From Dyella tabacisoli (GTDB taxonomy: Bacteria; Pseudomonadota; Gammaproteobacteria; Xanthomonadales; Rhodanobacteraceae), in the NCBI RefSeq assembly GCF_003350925.1, contig NZ_KZ857180.1, positions 1 to 64,000 of the forward strand: DNA of 64,000 bases, in the 5' to 3' direction. The notes under the pieces were generated by a model. The model was not told the DNA's origin. It saw nothing but the letters and a program-made list of their open reading frames with translations, and made no database searches. Positions 3,254 through 19,451 of this stretch are shown piece by piece (the stretch's first letter is position 1; the number at the start of each line of letters is the position of its first letter). Made by a program: the position numbers and the translations under genes.

Positions 3254-3296
3254 ATGCCCCCCCTCCCAGCCTCCCCCTGCAAGCAGGGGGAGGGGC
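3254..3296. repeat. REP-like hairpin
   Basis: CCTCCCCCTGC-AA-GCAGGGGGAGG preceded by CCCTCCCAG. It abuts the left end of structured repeat copy B, as the equivalent hairpin does at copy C. Confidence 0.75.
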
Positions 3297-3562
3297 ACGA
3301 CGCTCGCGCTTTTGACGTTGGCTCTTGACCTTGGGGCCCCTGTGCGTCGGTGAGGGGCGGACGACAAGGCCCGCAGGGGACTCGGCATGGATGCCGAGTC
3401 CTTTTCGCCAGTGCATGGATGCACTGTCGAAAAGCCCGGCCGACCCTCACAAGCCCGAAGGGCGACGCACCGGGGTGGCCTTCTCTTTGGTTACTTTCTC
3501 TTGGCCACTCAAGAGAAAGTGACTCGACCACCGGCAGGTGGCCGAAAGCCCGCCGCAGGCGA
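3297..3562 (+). repeat. Structured dispersed repeat, copy B
   Basis: Same element as copies A and C with different stem sequences that still pair. Stem I is 3378-3387/3392-3401 (GGACTCGGCA with its complement, loop TGGA). Stem II is 3402-3407/3428-3433 around 3409-3415/3420-3426. Stem III is 3493-3503/3510-3520. Stem IV is CCACC-GGCA-GGTGG. The right end is 35 bases from the stop codon of the minus-strand gene at 3598. The copy separates the two TonB-like paralogs and fills most of the 396-base gap. Confidence 0.85.
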
Positions 3563-19089: not shown

Positions 19090-19128
19090 CACCCCCTCCC
19101 AGCCTCCCCTGCTAGCAGGGGGAGGGGC
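19090..19128. repeat. REP-like hairpin
   Basis: CCTCCCCTGC-TA-GCAGGGGGAGG preceded by CCCTCCCAG, abutting structured repeat copy C. Confidence 0.7.
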
Positions 19129-19417
19129 GAAAGCGCAGCGCTCGCTGCTTTTGACGTTGATCTTGATCTTGCTTTTGCTCTTGACCCTGGGGCCCCTGTG
19201 CGTCGGTGAGGGTCGGACGACAAGGCCCGCAGGGGCATCGACATGGATGTCGATGCCTTTTCGCCAGGGCAGGAAGCCCTGTCGAAAAGCCCGGCCGACC
19301 CTCACGTACCCGAAGGGCGACTCACCGGGGTGGCCTTCTCTTTGGTTACTTTCTCTTGGCCACTCAAGAGAAAGTGACTCGACCACCGGCAGGTGGCCGA
19401 AAGCCCGCCGCAGGCGA
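19129..19417 (+). repeat. Structured dispersed repeat, copy C
   Basis: The longest complete copy. It carries a direct GATCTT-rich stretch near its left end, then GGGGCCCC. Stem I is 19234-19243/19248-19257. Stem II is as in copy A. Stem III is 19348-19358/19365-19375. Stem IV is CCACC-GGCA-GGTGG, followed by the CGCCGCAGGCG terminus. The right end is 34 bases from the stop codon of the minus-strand RND gene. With the REP hairpin it fills the 405-base gap between the convergent GNAT and RND genes. Confidence 0.87.
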
Positions 19418-19451
19418 TCAACCTAGCCCCACACACCCAAACAAAAGATCA

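Follow-up and report, generated by a model that had tools for sequence, protein, structure and literature searches.

Dyella tabacisoli carries a dispersed, recombining structured element, the plus strand of which folds into a series of hairpins, two of them presenting GGA in loops that stay constant while their stems vary. Selection on the single-stranded fold is strongly supported, and it is probable that the GGA hairpins are clamped by a dimer of CsrA/RsmA, in which case this structured RNA would serve both as a genome-wide CsrA sponge and as a tag on individual transcripts. Copies were examined in a 64,000-nucleotide stretch of the genome (the window), in the remainder of that genome, and in other bacteria.

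Three copies (A, B, and C) were located at or close to the positions reported in an earlier note on this sequence, with structured cores at 277-429, 3337-3475, and 19193-19330, respectively, all on the plus strand; a 3′ domain of ~90 nt follows each core. Two subtypes, type 1 and type 2, occur in the genome. In copy B (type 1), a CCCC/GGGG closing stem (3337-3340 with 3472-3475) is followed by P1 (3342-3348 with 3464-3470) and P2 (3350-3360 with 3440-3450). P2 encloses three hairpins, namely, a CCC-GCA-GGG mini-hairpin, hairpin I (3378-3401; loop GGA at 3389-3391 in the context CATGGATG, a CANGGAYG sequence), and hairpin II (3402-3433; base TTTTCG..CGAAAA, top CAGTGCA/TGCACTG, loop GGA at 3417-3419). 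The short hairpin IIb (GCCC GAA GGGC; 3453-3463) lies inside P1; in type 2 copies a GGA hairpin takes its place. The 3′ domain (3475-3524) contains hairpin III (3489-3503 with 3510-3524), whose loop GGCCAC (3503-3508) is complementary to GTGGCC at 3475-3480, and hairpin IV (CCACC GGCA GGTGG) follows at 3528-3541. Copy A is of type 2, with GGA loops at 328 (I), 355 (II), and 403 (IIb), an additional GGA (255-257) in a 5′ hairpin (GCGCGC AGGAC GCGCGC; 248-264), and a 3′ domain (430-515) comprising hairpin III with the pseudoknot and hairpin IV (CCCC GGCA GGGG). Copy C is of type 1, with GGA loops at 19245 and 19272 and a 3′ domain at 19331-19420. A fourth, type 1 copy on the minus strand (1-94; 96.8% over 94 nt) consists of the 5′ part only, being cut by the contig start, and diverges from copy A to form a head-to-head pair. 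The elements are immediately preceded on their 5′ side by G/C-rich palindromes (CCCCTCCC..GGGGGAGGGGC; 93-124, 160-196, 3258-3298, and 19092-19127), which look like a separate REP-type repeat and are possibly part of the mobile unit.

Copy B has a predicted folding energy of −138.4 kcal/mol (z, −4.62), which none of 200 shuffled sequences equaled. The compensatory changes from which a conserved fold had been proposed are all present: stem I reads GGCATCGACA in A and C and GGACTCGGCA in B, with both sides changed in three pairs; stem II shows a G-C to T-A switch and one more inner pair in B; and stem IV is CCCC/GGGG or CCACC/GGTGG. Stem III, described previously as invariant, is so among the three window copies, but genome-wide it occurs in two main versions (TTTCTCTTG/CAAGAGAAA and TTTTCTTTG/CAAAGAAAA), so that this stem also carries both-side changes. 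Hairpin IV exists in the genome as CCACC, CCCC, and CCTCC. The three window copies alone are weak evidence, given that a small number of hairpin versions have recombined freely within this genome, and it is the comparison of sequences across genera that carries the case for selection. A covariance model was built, and covariation over many copies exceeded both shuffled and slid-partner controls. In an alignment of 28 copies drawn from roughly a dozen genera, double changes were found in 42 of the 57 modeled pairs, 91% of cells were paired, and the covariation score was 0.484 (0.151 when shuffled; ≤0.107 with slid partners). A larger alignment of 116 distinct copies, aligned to the covariance model and so biased toward it, gave both-side changes in 54 of 55 modeled pairs and a score of 0.457 (shuffled, 0.119; slid partners, ≤0.076). 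In these 116 copies, P2, the outer stem around hairpins I and II, had double changes in all 11 pairs, with 95.3% of cells paired. Double changes this pervasive, with scores well above the controls both within and between genera, indicate selection on the fold.

It is the plus strand that folds. Paired columns contained 121 G·U pairs and 51 A·C mismatches, whereas shuffles gave 389 and 331, and an excess of G·U over A·C beyond that expected from column composition identifies the strand that folds. A protein-coding reading was rejected; open reading frames (ORFs) overlie the copies in several frames, and the stems covary without a coding pattern.

The 3′ domain adds a tertiary feature. The complementarity between the hairpin III loop and the segment preceding it recurs in variant form (GTGTCC/GGACA, GTGCTC/GAGCA, GTCGCC/GGCGAC, and others), and across 95 copies the longest loop-upstream pairing averaged 5.07, compared with 4.02 (standard deviation, 0.09) after shuffling; none of 200 shuffles reached the observed value. 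The predicted pseudoknot, joining the downstream loop to the upstream segment, covaries too. A partial duplicate of the T-rich strand of hairpin III lies immediately upstream (TTCTCTTTGG / TTTCTCTTGG; 3481-3510 and equivalent positions) and could allow the A-rich strand to switch partners. At one locus elsewhere in the genome (contig C14, 7703-7865), ~28 nt of the 3′ tail of the element is repeated beside a copy, with a spacing of 41 to 47 bp.

The most specific functional lead, overlooked in the earlier note, is the conservation of the GGA loops. The apical loop of hairpin I contained GGA in 113 of 115 copies, on 43 different versions of the stem, and that of hairpin II in 116 of 116, on 37 versions. 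GGA was present in 47 of the 68 copies having hairpin IIb but in just 5 of 116 copies of the neighboring mini-hairpin, and type 2 copies have the additional 5′ GGA hairpin. These counts also bear on the reading that gene conversion, rather than selection on structure, produced the paired changes. Versions of stems I and III are combined in all four possible ways (10, 9, 8, and 7 copies), a reassortment which indicates that whole hairpins have been moved among copies by recombination or gene conversion. Conversion of this kind relocates entire hairpins without generating complementary stems, and pairing was retained together with the GGA loop in those 43 and 37 distinct stems across genera, with covariation evident in the 28 diverse copies as well. 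We regard an artifact of conversion as highly improbable.

The loop contexts were CANGGAYG or CAGGA, the former in 108 of 116 copies, and the ACARGGAUGU core of the CsrA SELEX site was present in 15. The GGA in the window copies was predicted to be unpaired with a probability of 1.0. When both strands of the window were searched for GGA hairpins in tandem (≥6-bp stems, within 60 nt), the only examples were those of the three elements, each on the plus strand. Enrichment of CANGGAYG across the window was considered and rejected (22 occurrences, 22.6 expected); the signal sits in the paired hairpins. The SELEX consensus for CsrA is RUACARGGAUGU, with GGA mostly in six-nucleotide loops, and CsrA bridges two sites 10 to 63 nt apart, with an optimum of >18 nt (PMC7652899). 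The distance between the GGAs of hairpins I and II, 23 to 26 nt in all copies measured, falls within this bridging range. Judged by sequence, loops I and II match the CsrA/RsmA site at a spacing that one CsrA dimer could bridge. The stems, at 9 to 13 bp, exceed the length favored by SELEX, where most ligands had no more than four contiguous pairs (PMC7652899), and this counts against a role in CsrA binding. A single csrA gene with normal N-terminal and RNA-binding sequence is present in D. tabacisoli, and csrA was found in 35 of 36 element-bearing genomes, the lone exception being a fragmented assembly; this co-occurrence is weak evidence, as csrA is very common across the class.

The earlier statement that the element matches no named family holds for the window copies at the Rfam gathering cut-off, and no useful match was obtained for them at gathering or E-value thresholds, but it missed a remote kinship with TwoAYGGAY (RF01731, clan CL00106). 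The link emerged through distant homologues found with the covariance model. RF01731 and our model R1 matched the same loci in genomes of other gammaproteobacterial families (G197, G064, G165, G036, and G021; for example, G197:C3:106074 and G036:C1:2449372). RF01731 scored above its cut-off in two genomes of other families, with relatives reaching 65.5 bits. In D. tabacisoli the best copy scored 36.2 bits, under the 43-bit gathering cut-off, and the copies were accordingly classed as a distant relative rather than as formal members. On this evidence the element is a remote, high-copy branch of the TwoAYGGAY group, itself a predicted RNA family. In both, a longer-range stem encloses an adjacent pair of hairpins that carry (A)NGGAY-type loops. 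The D. tabacisoli copies differ in having a mini-hairpin ahead of hairpin I, in the additional GGA hairpin of type 2, in a pseudoknot-forming 3′ domain that is absent from the Rfam model as read, and in their number, with dozens dispersed over the genome in divergent pairs. TwoAYGGAY was discovered by Weinberg et al. in 2010 (PMC2864571) and was proposed, without validation, to be a CsrA-sequestering RNA by Gardner and Eldai in 2014 (PMC4333381).

Other known systems share some of these features. The CsrB/CsrC/RsmX/Y/Z small RNAs (sRNAs) carry several GGA-loop hairpins per RNA and have CsrA/RsmA as the expected partner, yet they are few, independently transcribed genes, in contrast to the ~60 dispersed copies without a recognized promoter seen here, and neither RsmX/Y/Z nor CsrB matched the window at Rfam cut-offs. 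RsmU of Xanthomonas, in the same order, is a GGA-bearing RsmA-binding RNA derived from a 3′ untranslated region (UTR); compared by its published description, it differs in being reported from Xanthomonas alone and in having one gene, XC1332 (comEA), as the source of that 3′ UTR (PMC7694677). REP/BIME sequences are likewise high in copy number, intergenic, arranged in inverted pairs, and absent between divergent genes in scored cases, but the element is much longer (about 230 to 280 nt), has multiple hairpins and invariant GGA loops, and is not accompanied by any RAYT transposase above the cut-off in the D. tabacisoli genome. Literature searches yielded no account of this repeat. The new features are the dispersed, high-copy nature of this branch, its two subtypes arranged in divergent pairs, the pseudoknot at its 3′ end, the sites that are empty in a congener, and the trading of hairpin variants between copies.

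The D. tabacisoli genome contained 61 covariance-model matches, two of them weak. Matches were found in at least 119 of 147 genomes and 23 of 26 genera of the family, in at least 34 of 369 genomes of the class, and in at least 4 of 299 genomes of a phylum-wide sample, all four from the same order; these counts are lower bounds, since only the best 8 to 20 candidates per genome were scored and strict filters were applied. Seventeen copies in D. tabacisoli were of type 2, and 11 of these were head-to-head with a type 1 copy, with 138 to 256 nt between cores. The other six lay within a few hundred bases of the contig end that they face (contigs C6, C8, C12, C13, C14, and C16), copy A with its truncated partner at 1-94 being among them, and it appears from this that pairs break short-read assemblies. 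Pairs of unlike subtype were seen again in other genera. At two loci in distant relatives (L132 and L141), the two copies were convergent rather than divergent.

Copies were intergenic and often ended just past the 3′ end of a neighboring gene. This placement, together with the cis-regulatory type assigned to TwoAYGGAY by Rfam, would suit an element that acts in cis, each copy controlling its own transcript by way of CsrA-dependent termination or stability and leaving the CsrA pool untitrated. The discovery paper, though, scored TwoAYGGAY as not cis-regulatory (PMC2864571), of 43 cases scored, 30 had the downstream gene on the other strand, and sites have been gained or lost between congeners. 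Both orientations occur, a strict sense 3′-UTR placement was rejected, and a purely cis-acting role seems doubtful. Neither a σ70-type promoter nor a terminator was found at copy B; an intrinsic terminator reading was also rejected, sites near copy A being chance-like.

Comparison with a second genome of the genus (G001) showed presence/absence at two of the window sites. The site of copy B spans about 45 bp in G001 and 416 bp in D. tabacisoli, and that of copy C lacks the element while the flanking genes match; the differences are compatible with gain or loss, and divergence of the spacer at site B prevents the placing of junctions or of a target site duplication. G001 has dozens of elements elsewhere in its genome. 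Such empty sites, the number of matches in D. tabacisoli, the resemblance of pairs with outward 3′ domains to long terminal inverted repeats, and the lack of any copy located between divergently transcribed genes among the 36 cases that could be scored (using a simple gene caller; the cases are not all independent, as paired copies share neighbors) are what would be expected of a selfish REP- or MITE-like repeat, in which the fold acts mainly as single-stranded DNA or RNA read by a mobilizing enzyme and GGA is a signal for that enzyme rather than a CsrA site. No transposase gene was found with the copies, however. A single Y1 transposase-like ORF in D. tabacisoli (contig C12, 12073-12369) scored 21.9 bits, under the 23-bit cut-off, and is at most a candidate for the mobilizing enzyme; no transposase was recognized by eye among the ORFs listed between the members of two widely spaced pairs; and searches of plasmids, phages, and viral contigs found no copy at the sensitivity applied. 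The GGA context and spacing, moreover, match CsrA specifically. A selfish repeat of this kind is unlikely, if somewhat less so than an element acting in cis alone.

We therefore favor the CsrA sponge. Two hairpins in type 1 copies, and three to four in type 2 copies, would offer a loop GGA, and hairpins I and II would be clamped by one CsrA/RsmA dimer. Transcripts bearing the element, whether from read-through or from promoters, would capture CsrA and so lower the free pool, the genome-wide set thereby acting as a distributed sponge, and any transcript containing a copy would gain a CsrA-binding tag. Apart from stem length and the lack of a recognized promoter, this proposal has to contend with solo copies that have no fixed sense orientation relative to neighboring genes and with a high copy number and empty sites that are also compatible with a selfish repeat; one that used its GGA loops for an unrelated purpose would look similar.

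The global regulator CsrA has just a few dedicated sRNAs as known antagonists. An element present dozens of times per genome, with site pairs of the CsrA type at near-fixed spacing, would constitute an unrecognized large pool of CsrA sites. More tentatively, and with less than even confidence, a mobile or recombining repeat may have spread CsrA-binding modules over gammaproteobacterial genomes, such that copy number partly sets CsrA availability, insertions give transcripts CsrA binding, and TwoAYGGAY represents one corner of a larger group; if so, the ~60 copies here would amount to >150 GGA hairpins, provided all are intact. The element gives a ready test for the unproven 2014 idea that TwoAYGGAY RNAs bind CsrA, and the extended fold, with its 3′ pseudoknot domain, could be used to improve the Rfam model. 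A repeat of this sort, present in most sampled genomes of the family, would also link repeat spread to global regulation.
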